From NCBI GenBank assembly GCA_018897435.1, contig JAHIKI010000036.1, positions 1-44,357 of the forward strand: DNA of 44,357 bases, written 5' to 3'. This document shows, in pieces, positions 1,267 through 44,127 of this stretch; the first letter of the stretch is position 1, and the number at the start of each line of letters is the position of its first letter. The notes under the pieces are model-generated. The model made no database searches. It saw only the letters and a program-made list of their open reading frames with translations, and was not told where the DNA came from. This stretch comes from Acidobacteriota bacterium (lineage in GTDB: Bacteria; Acidobacteriota; Aminicenantia; UBA2199). Made by a program: the position numbers and the translations under genes.

Positions 1267-1404
1267 GATCCCCCCGGCTAGCGCCACCCCCCTTAGTAAA
1301 GGGATTTTTTAACCTAAAACTGTCAGTTAGAAAAACATGAATTCCAAGATAGATTTCCTGTTTTTAATGTCCCCTCACTTAAGAGGGGATGCAGGAGGGA
1401 TTTA
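1267..1404. repeat. Family D C-run/G-run repeat (degenerate copy)
   Basis: Contains TCCCCCCGGCTAGCGCCACC at 1269 onward, then CCCCCCTTAGTAAAGGG, and 1371-1404 with CCCCTCACTTAAGAGGGG and GGAGGGATTT. The same words occur in the arrays flanking the DUF559 gene at 26242-26530 and 27016-27200. No gene is visible in this 200-base gap. Confidence 0.65.
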
Positions 1405-9610: not shown

Positions 9611-9717
9611 GTAGGGGCACGGCGTGCCGTGCCCATTGATCGCGTAACAATTTCAGGTCATGAACATGATCGCGGGGGCAGGCACAACAAAAGGGGCACG
9701 GCACGCCGTGCCCCTAC
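9611..9717 (+). repeat. Family A BIME (REP plus inverted REP)
   Basis: Opens with GTAG plus the family A palindrome (9611-9634) and closes with the inverted palindrome ending in CTAC (9714-9717). The roughly 60-base middle is shared with the copy at 10655-10759. The terminal CTAC, read on the minus strand, supplies the TAG stop codon of the RAYT gene. Confidence 0.88.
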
Positions 9718-10403
9718 GTTAGGGGATTTTCTTCGTCGGATTGCCAATTTTCCGGATTACAGCAAATATATCCCATGATTTTCTGCAATTCGTCATTATC
9801 GCGGATAATGTGCTCATAATAATTGCGCTGCCATACTGGAGTTCCTGGAGAGCCGCGGCTCTCGTTGACATATTTCCCGGCCGCTGACTTGAATGAGCGA
9901 ATGATGGTGGGTAATGATCCGGAAACGGGTCGTCCAAATCGTTCACATTTCAGGTCAGGTGTAGGGGCACAGCGTGCTGTGCCCAATGTTTCAGGATTCA
10001 TTTTATTGATCTGAGTGTCGTAGGGGCACGGCGTGCCGTGCCCATTTGTCGCGAAATGGCTATAGGCATTGGGCGATATCAGGGGACAGGATAAAGAAGG
10101 GGCACGGCACGCCGTGCCCCTACGCTGAACCTCATCTACTATCCAAATGATTCCGTGAAAATGGTTGGGCATGATAATGAACTCATCTAATTTGATGCTG
10201 GGCCTTATAGCTGCCGTCTCCAGCCAAGCTTTTTCGATGCACTTACCCTGTTCATTTAGGACCATCAAACCATCGGAGATGTTCCCGAAGATGCACTCCT
10301 TTTGATAAGAGCAAATGGTTACGAAATATGCATTGCCCTGGGTGTAATTGAATCCCTTCAGGCGGATAGAGCGTCGATGATGTTTTTCCCTATCAAATGG
10401 CAT
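9714..10403 (-). CDS. REP-associated tyrosine transposase (RAYT, Y1/IS200-like)
   Basis: 229 residues from the ATG at 10403, the usual family start MPFDREKHHRRSIRLKGF. The HUH metal-binding motif is MPNHFHGIIWI. The C-terminal part has VWQRNYYEHIIRDNDELQKI, the helix region that carries the catalytic tyrosine in this class, and NPENW. RAYTs are single-strand nucleases that cut at the GTAG foot of REP hairpins. Between the HUH motif and the C-terminal part, about 50 residues (RRGTACRAPS, GHGTPCPYD, LGTARCAPT) are translated REP sequence from elements at 10020-10123 and 9961-9984, yet the frame stays open. The stop codon TAG lies in the BIME 9611-9717. Whether the enlarged linker is tolerated is unknown. 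Confidence 0.87.
   Translation of the reverse strand: MPFDREKHHRRSIRLKGFNYTQGNAYFVTICSYQKECIFGNISDGLMVLNEQGKCIEKAWLETAAIRPSIKLDEFIIMPNHFHGIIWIVDEVQRRGTACRAPSLSCPLISPNAYSHFATNGHGTPCPYDTQINKMNPETLGTARCAPTPDLKCERFGRPVSGSLPTIIRSFKSAAGKYVNESRGSPGTPVWQRNYYEHIIRDNDELQKIMGYICCNPENWQSDEENPLT
9961..9984 (+). repeat. Family A REP inside the RAYT gene, compensated variant
   Basis: GTAG plus GGGCACAGCGTGCTGTGCCC. Relative to the consensus both arms differ by one base (G to A, C to T), so the pairing is kept. It lies in the coding region and reads as GTARCAPT in the protein. Confidence 0.85.
10020..10123 (+). repeat. Family A BIME inserted in the RAYT gene
   Basis: GTAG-palindrome at 10020-10043, then the 49-base spacer typical of the 73-base unit, then an inverted palindrome ending in CTAC (10120-10123). 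It lies just after the codons of the HUH motif and its immediate flank. Confidence 0.88.
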
Positions 10404-10435
10404 TGATTCATAATAACAGAAAGCTAGTATTTTCC

Positions 10436-10654
10436 GTAGGGGCACGGCGTGCCGTGCCCATTGGTCGCGAAATGGCTATAGGCATTGGACAATATCAGGG
10501 GATAGGATGTAGGGGCACGGCGTGCCGTGCCCATTGGTAGCGAAATGGCCATAGACATTGGACAATATCAGGGGACAGGATGTAGGGGCACGGCGTGCCG
10601 TGCCCATAGCTCGCGAAATGGCCATAGACATTGGACAATATCAGGGGATAGGAT
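10436..10654 (+). repeat. Tandem array of three 73-base family A units
   Basis: Units begin at 10436, 10509 and 10582, exactly 73 bases apart; a fourth GTAG at 10655 starts the BIME that follows. Each unit is a 24-base REP plus a 49-base spacer such as GCGAAATGGC and CAATATCAGGGGA. The array starts 33 bases upstream of the RAYT start codon and fills the space to the Nudix gene. Confidence 0.93.
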
Positions 10655-10759
10655 GTAGGGGCACGGCGTGCCGTGCCCATAGCTCGCGGACCAATTTCAC
10701 GTCATGATCGATCTCGGGGGCAGGCACAATAAAAAGGGCACGGCACGCCGTGCCCCTAC
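10655..10759 (+). repeat. Family A BIME, near-copy of 9611-9717
   Basis: GTAG-palindrome, a middle with CGGGGGCAGGCACAA, and an inverted palindrome ending CTAC (10756-10759). It matches 9611-9717 along its length, so the RAYT gene and array are bracketed by two related composite elements in direct orientation. Confidence 0.88.
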
Positions 10760-10764
10760 GCCAA

Positions 10765-25301: not shown

Positions 25302-26177
25302 TCAGGCGTTGCTTTGGAATGGCAGGGCTTTGGTTTTGCCACGGTGGGAATTCAAGGCCAGGGCCAGCAGGATCATGGCGGCGCCCAGGGCCAGGCGGAC
25401 GAGATCTGTTCGTTCATGAAAAAAAAGAAGGGACACCGCAATGGCTAAAGGGATCTTGACATTGTTGGAAACAGCCAATAAACCTGCAGAAACCTTGGTC
25501 GCGCCTACGTTCCAAAGGAAAAATCCCACTCCGGAGGCCAGCAATCCCAAATACAACAGGACCAGCACTTGGCCGCTGTCCAGTATCAGGTCCGGCAGAC
25601 CCGTAACCAACAGCATGGCCAGACCCGCAGCCGTCGTTCCGCCCAGGTAAAGCCAGGCGAAACCTTCGCGATCCTTCCATATCCTGACCGCCGGCATCAG
25701 GCGCCGGTAAAAGATCTGACCCAAGGCGAAACAAAGGTTGGAAACCTGCACCAGGGCAAAACCAACAAGCAGGTCGGCCCTGCCCAACCCGGAATACACG
25801 ATCATAGCGGTCCCGGCTACAGCCAGTAGCGCTGTCCAAAAATGGAGTGGCCGGAAACGTTTTTCCCAGAGATCGTCTACTGCAGTCACATAGAGCGGGG
25901 TGAAAATGGTGAACAGGGCCACCTGGTGGGCAGCCAAAAAACGGAACGACTGGATATAAAAAACGTACATCAAACCAAACTGGATCATACCGATTAAAAA
26001 AAGGCGCAGGGTCATGGCCGCAGGGATCTTTCGCGGCCGCAGCTGGGGAAGAAAAAGCAGCAAAGATAGGGCCAGGCGGGCGAAGGCCACAAAACCAGCG
26101 TCCAGGCCACCGAGATATTTTTTAATCAAACCGAAAGAAAAGGCCCAGATGAATGAAGTGATCAGCAGAAGCGCCAT
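25302..26177 (-). CDS. EamA/DMT-superfamily transporter
   Basis: 291 residues, ten membrane helices in two repeats of five (drug/metabolite transporter family). Typical text includes SFIWAFSFGLIKKYLGG and FARLALSLLLFLPQLRPRK in the first repeat and NVKIPLAIAVSLLFFHERT in the second. The substrate is unknown. The ATG lies seven bases after a TATAGT box with no ribosome site, so a leaderless message is likely. Confidence 0.88.
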   Translation of the reverse strand: MALLLITSFIWAFSFGLIKKYLGGLDAGFVAFARLALSLLLFLPQLRPRKIPAAMTLRLFLIGMIQFGLMYVFYIQSFRFLAAHQVALFTIFTPLYVTAVDDLWEKRFRPLHFWTALLAVAGTAMIVYSGLGRADLLVGFALVQVSNLCFALGQIFYRRLMPAVRIWKDREGFAWLYLGGTTAAGLAMLLVTGLPDLILDSGQVLVLLYLGLLASGVGFFLWNVGATKVSAGLLAVSNNVKIPLAIAVSLLFFHERTDLVRLALGAAMILLALALNSHRGKTKALPFQSNA

Positions 26178-26241: not shown

Positions 26242-26530
26242 TTATCCCCCCGGCTGCGCCACCCTTAAAAAAGAGGGTTAAGAAAAAGGCAATATTGCCT
26301 GCTGTTCCCCTCCCCCCTTACCCAAGGGGGGATAAAGGGGGGATCAGTATTCCGAAAGTAAACAACAATGCCTTCCACTAAAAACTTATCCCCCCGGCTG
26401 CGCCACCCCCCTTGCCAAGGGGGGTTGTCTAACGAAAACACCATGAATAAACAGGTATCTGCAATCGCTCCATTCTTCATCTCACTCCCCCCTTACCCAA
26501 GGGGGGATAAAGGGGGGATCAGTATTCCGT
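26242..26530. repeat. Family D repeat block, left of DUF559
   Basis: Built from TTATCCCCCCGGCTGCGCC, CCCCCCTTACCCAAGGGGGG (an eight-pair stem with loop ACCC), GGATAAAGGGGGGATCAG and CCAAGGGGGG units. Stretches 26251-26343 and 26306-26412 recur almost base for base at 27104-27199 and 27016-27119 on the other side of the nuclease gene, as direct repeats of about 100 bases. The block contains no gene. Confidence 0.88.
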
Positions 26531-26570
26531 AAAAAGGTATGGTTAATAAAATAAATGTAATACTAAGGCT

Positions 26571-26969
26571 CTATGAACACATCGCCAGAATTCTGTCGCA
26601 AACTCCAGTGAAATGCATCATTACATCATGATCTGAAAAACGGACAACCCGTAAACCATATGCTACTAAAATTTCCGTTCGTTCCTTGTCCAATGCCCTC
26701 CCTTTATCCTTGAAATGACCGGCACCATCGATCTCAATAACAAGTTTCATTTTGGGGCAATAGAAATCAACAATGAAATTGTCTATTGGGCGCTGTCGTA
26801 ATACACGAAATTTAAAATCCCGAAGCAATCCTTCCCACAGTTTTTTTTCCGCAGAGGTCAAAGCCTTTCGCATTGAACGGGCCAGACCGACCAGATCAGG
26901 ATTGTAAGGCAAGTGAAAACCGGTAGTGATCAATCCCTTTCTTTTTAACGATTCATAATCCCAATTCAT
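26571..26969 (-). CDS. DUF559-family nuclease-like protein
   Basis: 132 residues. DUF559 belongs to the PD-(D/E)xK/Vsr-like endonuclease superfamily. ALTSAEKKLWEGLLRDFKF and RVLRQRPIDNFIVDFYCPK are typical, and the catalytic core is VDF then VIEIDGAGH (Asp, then Glu-x-Asp), with DKERTEILVAYGLRVVRF at the end. All expected acidic residues are present, so it may be active. The first 25 residues (MNWDYESLKRKG) are an extension. It is isolated, points against the repeats' reading sense, and is enclosed by long direct copies of family D repeats, the look of a mobile cassette. Confidence 0.86.
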   Translation of the reverse strand: MNWDYESLKRKGLITTGFHLPYNPDLVGLARSMRKALTSAEKKLWEGLLRDFKFRVLRQRPIDNFIVDFYCPKMKLVIEIDGAGHFKDKGRALDKERTEILVAYGLRVVRFSDHDVMMHFTGVCDRILAMCS

Positions 26970-27015
26970 TTCGATTCATTGTAACAGATAGTACATTTAT
27001 TATCTTTGCTCACTT

Positions 27016-27200
27016 CCCCTCCCCCCTTACCCAAGGGGGGAAACAGGGGGGATCAGTATCTCGGAGTAAACATTTATGCCTTCCACTAAAAACTTATCCC
27101 CCCGGCTGCGCCACCCCCCTTAAAAAAGGGGGTTAAGAAAAAGGCAATATTGCCTGCTGTTCCCCTCCCCCCTTACCCAAGGGGGGATAAAGGGGGGATT
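27016..27200. repeat. Family D repeat block, right of DUF559
   Basis: Same modules as 26242-26530: CCCCCCTTACCCAAGGGGGG at two places, TTATCCCCCCGGCTGCGCC and CAATATTGCCTGCTGTTCCC. The order of modules matches the left block, so the pair frames the nuclease gene. Differences are point changes only, which suggests recent duplication. Confidence 0.88.
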
Positions 27201-27265
27201 TGAATATCGATGATTTTGAGGCTAAATATCTGTTGCATCCTTACGATTTTTCATAAACTCCCTAC

Positions 27266-27339: not shown

Positions 27340-28575
27340 GTGATCAATTACGATCAATTTTTATCCAATACTGCCAAGGGCATGAAACGTTCGGAGATCC
27401 GCGAGCTGCTGAAACTCACCCGCAAACCGGGCATCATTTCATTCGCCGGCGGCCTGCCGGCCCCGGACCTGTTTCCCATCGACGACATCAAGGAAATGTG
27501 CAAGATTGTCTTGGAAAAAGAAGGCAAAACCGCCCTGCAATACGGTCCTACCGAAGGCGACAACCGCCTGCGCGAGGAACTTGCCAAAATGATGAACAAG
27601 GACGGAGTAAATATCAGCAGCGACCATATCCTGATCGTCACATCATCCCAGCAGGGGCTGGACCTGGTGGGGAAAATATTCGTCGATCCGGGCGATGTGA
27701 TCATGACCAGCCGGCCCACCTATGTCGGCGCCATCCAGGCCTTCAACTCCTACGGTGCGAAAATGATGGGCATAGAGTTGGACCAGGAAGGCACCCAGAC
27801 GTCTCTGCTGGAAGCCGAGATCGCCAAGCTCGCCGCCAAGGGCAGCAAGCCGAAATTCATTTACGAAATTCCCGATTTCCAGAACCCCTCGGGCATCACC
27901 ATGAGTCTGAAAAGAAGAAAGGAACTCATCCGCATCGCCGAAAAATACGACCTGATCATCGTCGAAGACTCACCCTACCGGCAGCTGCGCTTCGAAGGCA
28001 AATCCGAACCATCGCTGATCAGCATGAACTCGGAGCGGATACTTTCCCTGTACACCTTCAGCAAGATCCTGCTGCCCGGCTTTCGGTTGGGCTGGATGGC
28101 CGGCCCCAGCGAACTGATCCAAAAAGCTGTGATCGCCAAGCAATCGGTCGACCTATGCTCCCCCCCGTTCAACCAGTCCATCCTTTACGAATACCTGAGC
28201 CGCGGTCTGTTGGAAAAACAGATCGTTGTCATTAGCAAAGCCTATAAGGAAAAGAGGGATTTCATGCTGGACAAAATGGCCCAGTACATGCCCAAACTTC
28301 CCGGGTTGAAGTGGACCCACCCCCAGGGCGGCTTGTTTCTTTGGGTCACTCTGCCGGAAAGCATGGATGCCGGCGAAATGTTCATTGCCGCTGTTGAAAA
28401 GCAGGTAGCGTATGTAGTAGGCACGGCTTTTTACCCGGACAGCGGCGGCAGCAATTGCTTCCGTATGAATTTCTCTTATTCGAGCATGGCCGAGATCGAG
28501 GAAGGGGTGAAACGCCTGGCCCTGGTCATCGGTACATGGAAAGGACGCCAGGAGACTTCGATTATTACTCCATAA
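27340..28575 (+). CDS. PLP-dependent aminotransferase, LysN/2-aminoadipate type
   Basis: 411 residues, fold-type I class I/II aminotransferase. ISFAGGLPAPDLFP near residue 33 and QYGPTEGDNRLREEL are typical of the MocR-related LysN/AadAT group that acts on 2-aminoadipate, leucine and aromatic amino acids. NPSG (182-185), Asp210, the Schiff-base Lys242 in YTFSKILLPGFRLGW and Arg249 are in place. The C-terminal NCFRMNFS holds the carboxylate-binding arginine. The start is GTG at 27340, with AAGGAGG (27328-27334) six bases before. Substrate specificity cannot be settled by eye. Confidence 0.9.
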   Translation: MINYDQFLSNTAKGMKRSEIRELLKLTRKPGIISFAGGLPAPDLFPIDDIKEMCKIVLEKEGKTALQYGPTEGDNRLREELAKMMNKDGVNISSDHILIVTSSQQGLDLVGKIFVDPGDVIMTSRPTYVGAIQAFNSYGAKMMGIELDQEGTQTSLLEAEIAKLAAKGSKPKFIYEIPDFQNPSGITMSLKRRKELIRIAEKYDLIIVEDSPYRQLRFEGKSEPSLISMNSERILSLYTFSKILLPGFRLGWMAGPSELIQKAVIAKQSVDLCSPPFNQSILYEYLSRGLLEKQIVVISKAYKEKRDFMLDKMAQYMPKLPGLKWTHPQGGLFLWVTLPESMDAGEMFIAAVEKQVAYVVGTAFYPDSGGSNCFRMNFSYSSMAEIEEGVKRLALVIGTWKGRQETSIITP

Positions 28576-42158: not shown

Positions 42159-42197
42159 AGGGCGACCCGTCCGCCGGCGTTTCGCCTGGCGGATCCC
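42159..42197. repeat. Family B partial element upstream of the second RAYT
   Basis: AGGGCGACCCGTCCGCCGG followed by CGTTTCGCCTGGCGGATC repeats exactly at 42589 onward inside the RAYT gene. It forms a hairpin of GTCCGCCGGCG with CGCCTGGCGGA. The rest of the gap 41997-42269 holds only the tRNA promoter. Confidence 0.75.
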
Positions 42198-42269
42198 CCC
42201 TTCATAAAGACAAAATTTAATATAACGAATTTCCTGTATTTCATTTTTCAGCCATGTTATTGTTTTCAT

Positions 42270-42846
42270 ATGTCATTTGATTTTGAAAGGCGTTCCCGGC
42301 GATCAATTCGCCTGAAGGGATTCGATTATTCCAGCCCAGGTAAATATTATATAACGATATGTACCTTGAATCGGGAATGTTTGTTCGGCGATATCCACAA
42401 AGGGAAAATGAATATATCGGCAGCCGGGAAAATCGTTCACCATGAATGGCTGCGCACATCAATGGTTCGGCCCGGGATTGAATTGGACGCCTTTGTCATC
42501 ATGCCGAACCACTTGCATGGCATCATTTCCATCCGTTTGCGTAGGGGCGTTCCGCTGGAACGCCCTGTGGATGTTGGCGATGAGGATAGGGCGACCCGTC
42601 CGCCGGCGTTTCGCCTGGCGGATCGACCCTACCTTAAAACCAAACACCATTGGGGCGATCCTTGGTCAATTCAAATCCAATTCAACGAAAGAAATACGGG
42701 AGTCAGCATATCCGGGATTTTATTGGCAGCGTAATTATTATGAACATATCATCCGCAATGGATCGGAATTAAGTCAAATTAGGAAATACATTTTGGAAAA
42801 TCCAGCCAATTGGAACGAGGATCAGGATAACCCAGTGAATTTTTAA
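42270..42846 (+). pseudogene. REP-associated tyrosine transposase, disrupted by its repeat
   Basis: The N-terminal part in one frame gives SFDFERRSRRSIRLKGFDYS and the HUH motif MPNHLHGIISI. The C-terminal part continues in another frame as GFYWQRNYYEHIIRNGSEL and NPANW and ends at TAA 42844-42846. Between them lies a family B element (42541-42632), and the frame shifts there, so no complete RAYT can be made without recoding. The protein parts are about 40-50 percent like the RAYT at 9714-10403 by eye. The insertion point, a few codons after the HUH motif, is the same as in that gene. Confidence 0.85.
42541..42632 (+). repeat. Family B BIME inserted in the second RAYT gene
   Basis: GTAG (42541) plus palindrome GGGGCGTTCCGCTGGAACGC, then the spacer TGTGGATGTTGGCGATG, a second hairpin and CTAC (42629-42632). 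Its 92 bases are not a multiple of three. Confidence 0.85.
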
Positions 42847-42853
42847 TCCCGGC

Positions 42854-42970
42854 GTAGGGGCGACCCGGCGGGTCGCCCTGTGGCTGTTGGCGATGTGAAT
42901 AGGGCGACCTGGCGGGTCGCCCTGCGGATTTAGGTGAAGACAGCAGGGCGTTCCAGCGGAACGCCCCTAC
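42854..42970 (+). repeat. Family B composite BIME between RAYT and histidine kinase
   Basis: GTAG plus GGGCGACCCGGCGGGTCGCC, spacer TGTGGCTGTTGGCGATG, a second GGGCGACC/GGTCGCCC hairpin, and an inverted GGGCGTTCCAGCGGAACGCC ending in CTAC (42967-42970). That CTAC gives the kinase gene its TAG stop on the minus strand. Confidence 0.87.
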
Positions 42971-44127
42971 GGAACGGTTACTGGAAATTTTAAACGAAAA
43001 ACCGTCCCGGCGGAGTGGTCCAACTCGATGGAACTATTGAGCTGTTGGCTCAGCATCTTGATCAACTTCAGTCCCAGGGTTTCCGGATTTTCCCAGTCCA
43101 CTCCAACAGGCATCCCGATCCCGTTGTCGGACATGTTCATTTTGAGTACGCCGCCTTCATGCTTCACCACAACAGCGATTTCGCAGTTGTCCTCACCGGC
43201 ACGCGGTTTGCCCCCGGGAAAGGCGTGCTTGCAGGAATTGGTGATCAGTTCGTTCAGGATCAGTCCACAGGGAACAGCGATATCCAGGTCCACTTGCACT
43301 CCAGCTGCCTGCACCGAGAAACGGATATCGCGTTGCGCTCCGAACTGGGCGCGTATATGGGCGCTCAGCGTCTCGATATAGTTTTGCAGGTCGATCCGGG
43401 CCAGGCTTTCCGATTTGTGGAGGCTCTCATGCACCAGGGCCATGGCGCGCACCCGCCCTTCCAGTTCCTGAAACATAGGGTTGAACATCGCATTATTGGC
43501 CTTGGCTTCCTGCATTTTGATCAGGCCGATGATGGTCATCAGGTTGTTCTTGACCCGGTGATGCACTTCTTTTAGAAGTATCTCTATCACCTCTTTGGAA
43601 TGATTGCGCTCAATGATATCTGCTTTCAATATATCGCTGGCTTGTGTCAGCTCCGCCGTTCGTTCCCCCACGCGACATTCCAACTCAGCGTGGGATTTTT
43701 GCAGCGCATCTTCTACGCGTTTGCGCTCGGTGATATCCTCGATAGCCAGGAGGATGACCAGCTTTTTTCCCAATAATCTTTTAATCTTCCTGGCACTCAA
43801 AAGCAGTACCCGCCTGCCGATGGAGGCAAAATCGTGTTCAATCTCATAGTCGTCAAAGGTCGTTTTCTGGGAAAGGATGGTTTCCAGCAGTTCCCGCAGC
43901 TTGGGGATATTCCACTGTTTATTGCCGAGGTCATAGAGAAACTGCCCCACTGTCTCTTCAGGTTTTACTTTAAAGAAGTCATAGAATGAACGGCTGACTT
44001 TGACGACTCTTAAATTATTGTCAAGAACGATTAAGGGTTCACGCACGGTGTTGATGATGCTCTCGGCAAATTCATTGGCTTCATTTGCGGTTCTTTTAAT
44101 GAATCTTCGCGTAAACGTGTGGGTCAT
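42967..44127 (-). CDS. PAS-domain sensor histidine kinase, HisKA_2 type
   Basis: 386 residues, no membrane helix, so a cytoplasmic sensor. A PAS domain covers about 18-135 (NTVREPLIVLDNNLRVVKVS to AIEDITERK) and a coiled coil 136-185. The phosphoacceptor region is LLKEVHHRVKNNLMTIIGLI with His189, the HisKA_2 family. The ATPase has the N box LILNELITNSCKHAFPGG and the G box DNGIGMPVG. AAGGAG precedes the ATG. Its TAG stop is provided by a family B repeat, so the original C-terminus may have been changed. It lies downstream of an NtrC-type regulator gene on the same strand and the two probably form a pair. Confidence 0.92.
   Translation of the reverse strand: MTHTFTRRFIKRTANEANEFAESIINTVREPLIVLDNNLRVVKVSRSFYDFFKVKPEETVGQFLYDLGNKQWNIPKLRELLETILSQKTTFDDYEIEHDFASIGRRVLLLSARKIKRLLGKKLVILLAIEDITERKRVEDALQKSHAELECRVGERTAELTQASDILKADIIERNHSKEVIEILLKEVHHRVKNNLMTIIGLIKMQEAKANNAMFNPMFQELEGRVRAMALVHESLHKSESLARIDLQNYIETLSAHIRAQFGAQRDIRFSVQAAGVQVDLDIAVPCGLILNELITNSCKHAFPGGKPRAGEDNCEIAVVVKHEGGVLKMNMSDNGIGMPVGVDWENPETLGLKLIKMLSQQLNSSIELDHSAGTVFRLKFPVTVP

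Follow-up and report, generated by a model that had tools for sequence, protein, structure and literature searches.

The 44,357-nucleotide window, i.e., the whole stretch of DNA analyzed here, is a single contig from a metagenome-assembled Aminicenantia genome (G000; 2.19 Mb, 60% complete), and the closest relatives of its genes are found in records under Candidatus Aminicenantes. Our analysis centers on a gene at 26571..26969 on the minus strand that encodes a 132-aa DUF559 nuclease (YcjD/Vsr-like, PD-(D/E)XK fold). Its product matches Pfam family PF04480 with an E of 7.8e-27 and 93.7 bits against a curated cut-off of 20.6, covers profile positions 6-108 of 109, and is 39% identical to E. coli YcjD across 103 aa. 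The flanking genes, which served as anchors for the orthologous site, are by sequence an EamA-type transporter gene on the left (25302..26177, minus strand) and an aminotransferase-like gene on the right (27340..28575, plus strand). Only two full stand-alone DUF559 genes are present in the searched part of G000, and both lie less than 100 bases from a repeat. At the second of them (L001, G000 contig 104), an IS630-type transposase-like ORF begins directly upstream of the DUF559 start.

A sequence-only reading of the window had claimed that near-identical blocks of ~100 bases lie on both sides of the DUF559 gene. This held, since positions 26246-26355 and 27101-27210 are 88% identical and positions 26357-26426 and 27065-27134 are 90% identical. 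The hairpin sequence CCCCCCTTACCCAAGGGGGG occurs exactly four times in the window (26312..26331, 26487-26506, 27021-27040, and 27167-27186; repeat features are given without strand), and allowing up to two mismatches yields 7 matches, compared with 0.04 expected from shuffles. The claim that the unit is a direct repeat of ~100 bases had to be refined, as the true unit is an element of ~100-130 bp with inverted ends, arranged as ATCCCCCC-linker-hairpin-body-hairpin-linker-GGGGGGAT or, with its hairpins written out, ATCCCCCC-linker-CCCCCCTTnnnnAAGGGGGG-body-CCCCCTTnnnAAGGGGGG-linker-GGGGGGAT.

Three complete elements and one half unit surround the gene. Element A (26244..26344; repeats D4 and D5) reads ATCCCCCC-linker-(decayed hairpin)-GGCAATATTGCC body-hairpin-GGGGGGAT, and element B (26388..26519), likewise recognized from its sequence and repeats, has the same ends around another body; this body recurs in the sister genome G034, where a solo element without the gene occupies the orthologous site. 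The half unit (hairpin plus GGGGGGAT; 27021..27053) lies 5' of the gene and is followed by the complete element C (27096..27199), which is supported by sequence, repeats, and folding. A decayed copy claimed at 1267-1404, 25 kb away, was also confirmed and proved to be a whole orphan element of the same family at 1268..1401 (repeat D7), which starts with ATCCCCCCGGCTAGCGCCA and ends with GGAGGGAT. In addition, orphan elements with ATCCCCCC/GGGGGGAT ends and variable bodies occur between unrelated genes at several other sites of G000.

When folded as single strands, all four elements subjected to this analysis close a terminal ATCCCCCC:GGGGGGAT stem (z -3.5 to -4.3). Inside this stem, two separate C/G hairpins form in three of the four, including element C (z -3.5), and in the remaining one the hairpin regions pair with each other. 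An Rfam search returned no match above threshold. Palindromic sequences also appear to have been inserted into the loop of the hairpin upstream of DUF559 at one related locus (L020) and into the linker of the downstream element at another (L021), as though these repeats had in turn been targets of insertion. The contig additionally seems to host further dispersed GC-rich palindromic families, such as GGGCGACCCG... and ACGGGAGGGTTTRACCCCC... (42159-42974; 21013-21062/39251-39300).

Each end of an element consists of a hairpin (C-run arm, loop, and G-run arm) and a third G-rich strand located 2-10 bases further out. This third strand is a full mirror of its own G-arm in 74 of 112 distinct informative units, against 27.6 (maximum 43) when arms and strands were re-paired. 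Alternative-hairpin switching, for which the third strand should be a direct copy of an arm, was rejected as it lost by 9 to 36 against the mirror (triplex) arrangement. The mirror third strand is thus shown, and it places the repeats in the BoxC/PIT/TMECO class of intrastrand triplexes; triplex formation by the window type is inferred. Its C6/G6 arms are homopolymeric and hence compatible with a mirror but uninformative.

BoxC/PIT/TMECO repeats have been familiar since the 1990s; they occur in thousands of copies and have been linked to genome instability (PMC4666352 and earlier work cited there). Their consensus is CCCTCNCCC-N3-6-GGGNGAGGG-N3-GGGNGAGGG, and the repeats frequently come as inverted pairs (Holder et al. 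2015, PMC4666352). There are 23 copies in E. coli K-12 and many in cyanobacteria, and the E. coli motif forms a triplex in vitro (PMC4666352). The same study reported no transposase or integrase remnants around the repeats and mentioned neither ycjD nor any other nuclease (PMC4666352). Accordingly, the repeat family noted in the sequence-only reading is not a new one, and what is new is its enzyme partner.

The AlphaFold2 model of the DUF559 protein has a pLDDT of 85.9, and its Foldseek matches are led by structure 3hrl (E 2e-5) and the catalytic domain of the homing endonuclease I-Bth0305I (3r3p, E 2e-4), while Vsr is a weaker match; the DUF559 family profile also reaches 3r3p (E 0.004). Across 34 relatives, D68 and D94 never vary, and E79, D81, and H85 are almost invariant. 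The protein thus meets the fold and residue criteria of a PD-(D/E)XK nuclease of the Vsr/EDxHD type, while its catalysis remains inferred. A Pfam search with it returned only DUF559 and related PD-(D/E)XK families and no Y1_Tnp, and PADLOC gave only weak matches to the nuclease parts of other systems and no DUF559 defense system. Previous work placed YcjD beside Vsr, as a prediction of a Vsr-like nuclease only (PMC1189080).

That DUF559 genes are enriched near the repeat across unrelated genomes had been put forward as a check, and the outcome was strongly positive. Among 66 relatives from Cyanobacteria, Bacteroidota, Aminicenantes, Raymondbacteria, Deinococcota, and others, a C-first hairpin lies within 400 bp of DUF559 in 59 and on both sides of the gene in 37. 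Hairpin density reaches 3.43/kb near the gene against 0.061/kb beyond 1.5 kb, i.e., a 56-fold enrichment; in these 66 relatives, no G-first hairpin (the same letters, reversed) lay near a DUF559 gene, and AT-rich hairpins were not enriched there. A separate set of cyanobacterial genomes showed C/G hairpins within 450 bases of 27 of 28 complete DUF559 loci, compared with 0 of 30 HNH (PF01844) loci of the same class (p 1e-15) and 0 of 18 partial or fused DUF559 hits (p 7e-12). As a strict [CT]-only definition of the hairpin missed TCCCCCA types, a looser one was applied alike to DUF559 loci and controls.

C/G hairpins were also found at all eight named loci drawn from other collections, i.e., those of E. 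coli, Sinorhizobium, Azospirillum, Deinococcus, Sphingomonas (between sufB and sufC), Photobacterium, a contig labelled as phage, and Neisseria gonorrhoeae, from which structure 3hrl (NGO0050) comes. Collectively, stand-alone DUF559 genes are generally associated with C/G-run hairpins, and for complete stand-alone genes this association spans Cyanobacteria, Aminicenantia and other Acidobacteriota, Bacteroidota, Deinococcota, and Pseudomonadota. One could argue that C/G-run hairpins are simply common and adjoin DUF559 by accident or through base composition. Such an artefact can be all but ruled out in view of the 56-fold enrichment, the empty HNH and fused-DUF559 controls, and the lack of reversed-order hairpins near the genes.

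At the level of whole genomes, the four of 149 genomes of the phylum that contain at least three hairpins all have a stand-alone DUF559 gene (P 4e-5), and two genomes of the same genus (G083 and G138) have neither gene nor hairpins. Of 214 cyanobacteria, at least 20 hairpins occur in 41 of 109 with a strong DUF559 hit and in 10 of 105 without one (p 9e-7), a difference that weakens to p 0.005 in genomes of at least 4.5 Mb. This co-occurrence is confounded by lineage and genome size and shows association only. DUF559-positive cyanobacteria without this hairpin type carry other hairpin types at the gene. Abundant repeats in genomes lacking any DUF559 gene, which would have refuted the sequence-only reading, were partly met with, both in repeat-rich cyanobacteria (G300 with 262 hairpins, G206, G348, and G353) and in many ycjD-negative E. 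coli.

The hairpins differ between DUF559 clades (CCCCCCTT, TCCCCCAATT, CCCCTCTCC, CCCCTCC, and TTCTCCCA). Mapping the five types onto a tree of 118 DUF559 proteins required 14 changes, against 49.9 after shuffling (0/200). A well-supported CCCCCTT clade unites Cyanobacteria, Aminicenantia, Raymondbacteria, and Deinococcota, cyanobacterial hosts contain several hairpin types, each with its own nuclease clade, and three genomes (G149, G159, and G162) host two DUF559 genes apiece with a separate hairpin type at each. The pairing of repeat type and nuclease clade is thus shown, also within single genomes, and the repeat tracks the enzyme and not the host.

The window contains a second locus of relevance. 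A RAYT-like tyrosine transposase gene (9714-10445, minus strand; locus 9611-10760) encodes the motif MPNHFHGI and matches Y1_Tnp with an E of 0.009, which is below the Pfam cut-off. Around it lie GTAGGGGCACGGCGTGCCGTGCCC palindromes, three 73-base tandem units among them, in what appears to be a REP/RAYT locus. With this gene and its GTAG-type repeats, both kinds of system appear side by side in the window. The sequence-only proposal of a non-HUH counterpart of RAYTs in the same genome fits the genomic evidence. Since the RAYT-like gene comes with GTAGGGGCACGGC repeats of its own, one could also suppose that this transposase moves the C/G repeats and that DUF559 is a mere passenger. We consider this very unlikely, as the RAYT repeats belong to a separate family that bears the GTAG tag and clusters at the RAYT-like gene, whereas the C/G-run units lack such a tag and their specificity across phyla is to DUF559.

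A comparison of orthologous sites gave evidence of movement. In G034, the window site holds one gene-less element with matching flanks on both sides, and in G083 it holds neither element nor gene; where G000 has its second DUF559 gene, G034 has gene-less elements arranged in an array, and the DUF559 gene of G034 lies at a third site. The two G000 copies differ by a dS of 0.075, compared with 0.42-0.48 between them and the G034 copy, and hence the gene was duplicated recently. In Bacteroidota, a cassette of the form CCTCACCCC-hairpin-DUF559-hairpin-GGGGTGAGG lies in frame within leucyl-tRNA synthetase (LeuRS) in eight genomes (L142, L198-L201, L204, L205, and L214), at the start of the editing domain; the residues on either side of it match positions 235 and 242 in the T. 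thermophilus enzyme (2v0c). Ten relatives have an uninterrupted LeuRS gene, and these empty orthologues show no repeat.

Presence and absence at orthologous sites, recent duplication, and in-frame insertion are thus shown, and the empty sites lacking both gene and repeat that had been called for as a check were found at the level of orthologous sites (G083 and the LeuRS relatives). No target-site duplication or exact insertion boundary was readable at the sites compared, as even the closest empty sites have diverged too far, and the flanks of a Microcoleus locus (L029) were too shuffled relative to its relatives for a clean empty site. The ends around the gene occur in two arrangements, facing inward in most cyanobacteria and outward in LeuRS, and the transposing unit is therefore unsettled.

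The nuclease is under purifying selection, with a dN/dS of about 0.07-0.18 in the LeuRS set where computable and 0.11-0.22 between Aminicenantes species. Together with the Vsr-like fold, the single conserved locus of ycjD in E. coli (see below), and the reported genetic instability of triplex motifs (PMC4666352), this selection could favor a housekeeping role, in which DUF559 resolves stalled triplex or hairpin structures in the manner of Vsr-type repair, the adjoining repeats serve the enzyme as regulatory sites or substrates, and no part of the system moves. We find this quite unlikely, since the place and number of gene and repeats differ between sister species, cassettes lie in frame in LeuRS and restriction genes, the gene was recently duplicated in G000, and its distribution tracks horizontal transfer and not host phylogeny.

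Many further in-frame cassettes seem to lie in restriction-modification genes (L172-L175, L178-L180, L186, L193, L194, and L087), with hosts that we take to be HsdR, HsdS, and type II-like methylases on the basis of sequence motifs and not profile searches. This may reflect a preference for, or a tolerance of, such hosts, and a bias is not established. At one locus (L094), DUF559 and its hairpins lie inside what we take, again from sequence motifs and not profile searches, to be an intein (CFRAGTEVKTQ...VFDLIVEEDHSYITAVG), in the position where a homing endonuclease would sit.

The main rival to a mobile system is a homing parasite. According to this explanation, the repeats spread by other means (replication slippage or another transposase), and a homing-type DUF559 nuclease cuts empty repeat sites, whereupon its gene is copied in through recombination between flanking repeats. 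In its favor are the fold and profile relation to I-Bth0305I, the apparent intein, and the occupation of the same LeuRS and restriction-enzyme sites in several genomes; homing also predicts that both gene sites of G000 are sites of gene-less elements in G034. Nevertheless, homing into independent repeats predicts neither a clade-specific repeat type across phyla nor the absence of repeats from same-genus genomes without DUF559, and the LeuRS insertion entered a gene whose empty orthologues show no repeat. We therefore regard this explanation as unlikely.

The association can also be followed in E. coli. In strain DH1 (a K-12 strain), a perfect BoxC/PIT/TMECO match lies ~170 bp after ycjD, and ycjD itself is present in about 3364 of 5426 E. 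coli genomes at a single conserved locus, sapF-ycjD-fabI. Using a chimeric query of ycjD plus repeat, we counted a median of 9 repeat copies (5-16) in ycjD-positive and 6 (1-10) in ycjD-negative genomes of an even sample, and a further 586 genomes contain neither ycjD nor the repeat. As lineage confounds this co-occurrence, it too shows association only. A precise empty site was not found at sapF-fabI; in UTI89, the interval is taken by the efflux (eef) region, without an exact boundary. ycjD and the efflux operon eefRABCD have been described as alternatives at this interval (L245, L246; PMC12817139), and it is possible that a DUF559 element took part in their replacement.

We propose, as the likely reading, that the DUF559 gene and the C/G-run hairpins constitute one mobile genetic system, in which cleavage and transposition are inferred. 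In this model, a single-stranded end would fold as a hairpin or an intrastrand triplex. Two facing ends, whose outer strands are mutually complementary, would make up the element of ~100-130 bp, with scattered gene-less elements as non-autonomous copies and nuclease genes flanked by the same ends as autonomous ones. The Vsr/EDxHD-type nuclease is predicted to recognize the folded end of its own type and to cut it, probably at moments when replication or transcription leaves that end single-stranded. Repair of the break would copy the element to a new intergenic site or, in frame, into a gene, and the nuclease gene would sometimes be copied as well. Gene-less elements would be moved in trans. 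Recognition of the folded end, its cleavage, and the copying step are all inferred without biochemistry, and the same applies to the sequence-only claim that the nuclease processes or spreads the repeats. Against a single mobile system stand the repeat-rich genomes without DUF559 and the up to 10 copies kept by ycjD-negative E. coli.

A bolder reading, for and against which we find the evidence equally balanced, is that of a previously unrecognized class of mobile element present in many phyla, including E. coli K-12. Its Vsr/EDxHD-type nuclease would recognize its own hairpin or triplex ends, spread gene-less triplex repeats (BoxC/PIT/TMECO and lineage variants), and place its own gene in intergenic DNA or in frame within host genes, among them those of an essential tRNA synthetase and many restriction-modification enzymes.

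We found no earlier report of a link between DUF559 and the repeat in the literature searched, which leaves out most subscription journals and preprints, so priority is unproven. The repeat half of the system was already known, and the enzyme half and the link between them are new as far as searchable papers show. The link joins two open questions, i.e., BoxC/PIT/TMECO repeats without an enzyme and a DUF559/YcjD family without a role, both of which can be tested in the laboratory in E. coli K-12 with its one ycjD and about two dozen repeats. If true, it would add a second, unrelated class of enzyme that makes REP-like repeats and possibly a nuclease specific for hairpin or triplex DNA, and it would explain Pro/Gly-rich insertions (such as LPSPPAPLPQERG) within many annotated bacterial proteins.

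Several known systems share features with the one described here. The window protein is a member of the YcjD/DUF559/COG2852 family (PF04480; 3hrl, NGO0050), which previously had no assigned role. The repeat is common to our system and to BoxC/PIT/TMECO (C-run, loop, G-run, short second loop, and mirrored second G-run), but earlier work described it without a mobility gene, whereas we add a partner gene and lineage-specific triplex variants in many phyla. Window-type elements resemble MITEs in being short, non-autonomous, bounded by terminal inverted repeats, and dispersed in copies. EDxHD/Vsr-like homing endonucleases (I-Bth0305I, 3r3p) offer the closest characterized fold, with a weak but significant profile match, and share with DUF559 cassettes the insertion within host genes, once in an apparent intein; in contrast to them, DUF559 cassettes are mostly free-standing and bounded by hairpins or triplexes, have dispersed gene-less copies, and lack a surrounding intron. 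Rickettsia palindromic elements (RPE) can sit in frame inside protein-coding genes, and in-frame palindromes are common to both systems. RPE, however, are not known to carry a nuclease gene, whereas the DUF559 palindromes bound one and read as Pro/Gly-rich linkers around the DUF559 domain.

The closest parallel in behavior is with REP/BIMEs and their RAYTs (TnpA-REP, Y1 HUH). Both systems have short dispersed palindromes, often in inverted pairs, and a single-copy enzyme gene flanked by the same repeats that are dispersed elsewhere; in both, the repeat type co-varies with the enzyme, and genomes without the enzyme keep leftover repeats. DUF559, on the other hand, is a Vsr/EDxHD-type PD-(D/E)XK nuclease with no HUH motif and no catalytic tyrosine. 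Its units lack the GTAG tag of REPs (they read GATCCCCCC-linker-hairpin or hairpin-linker-GGGGGGATC) and carry a mirror third strand, and its cassette also inserts in frame into genes. The genomic evidence thus fits a system that works like RAYT/REP without being a member of it, with catalysis of movement by the nuclease as the inferred part.
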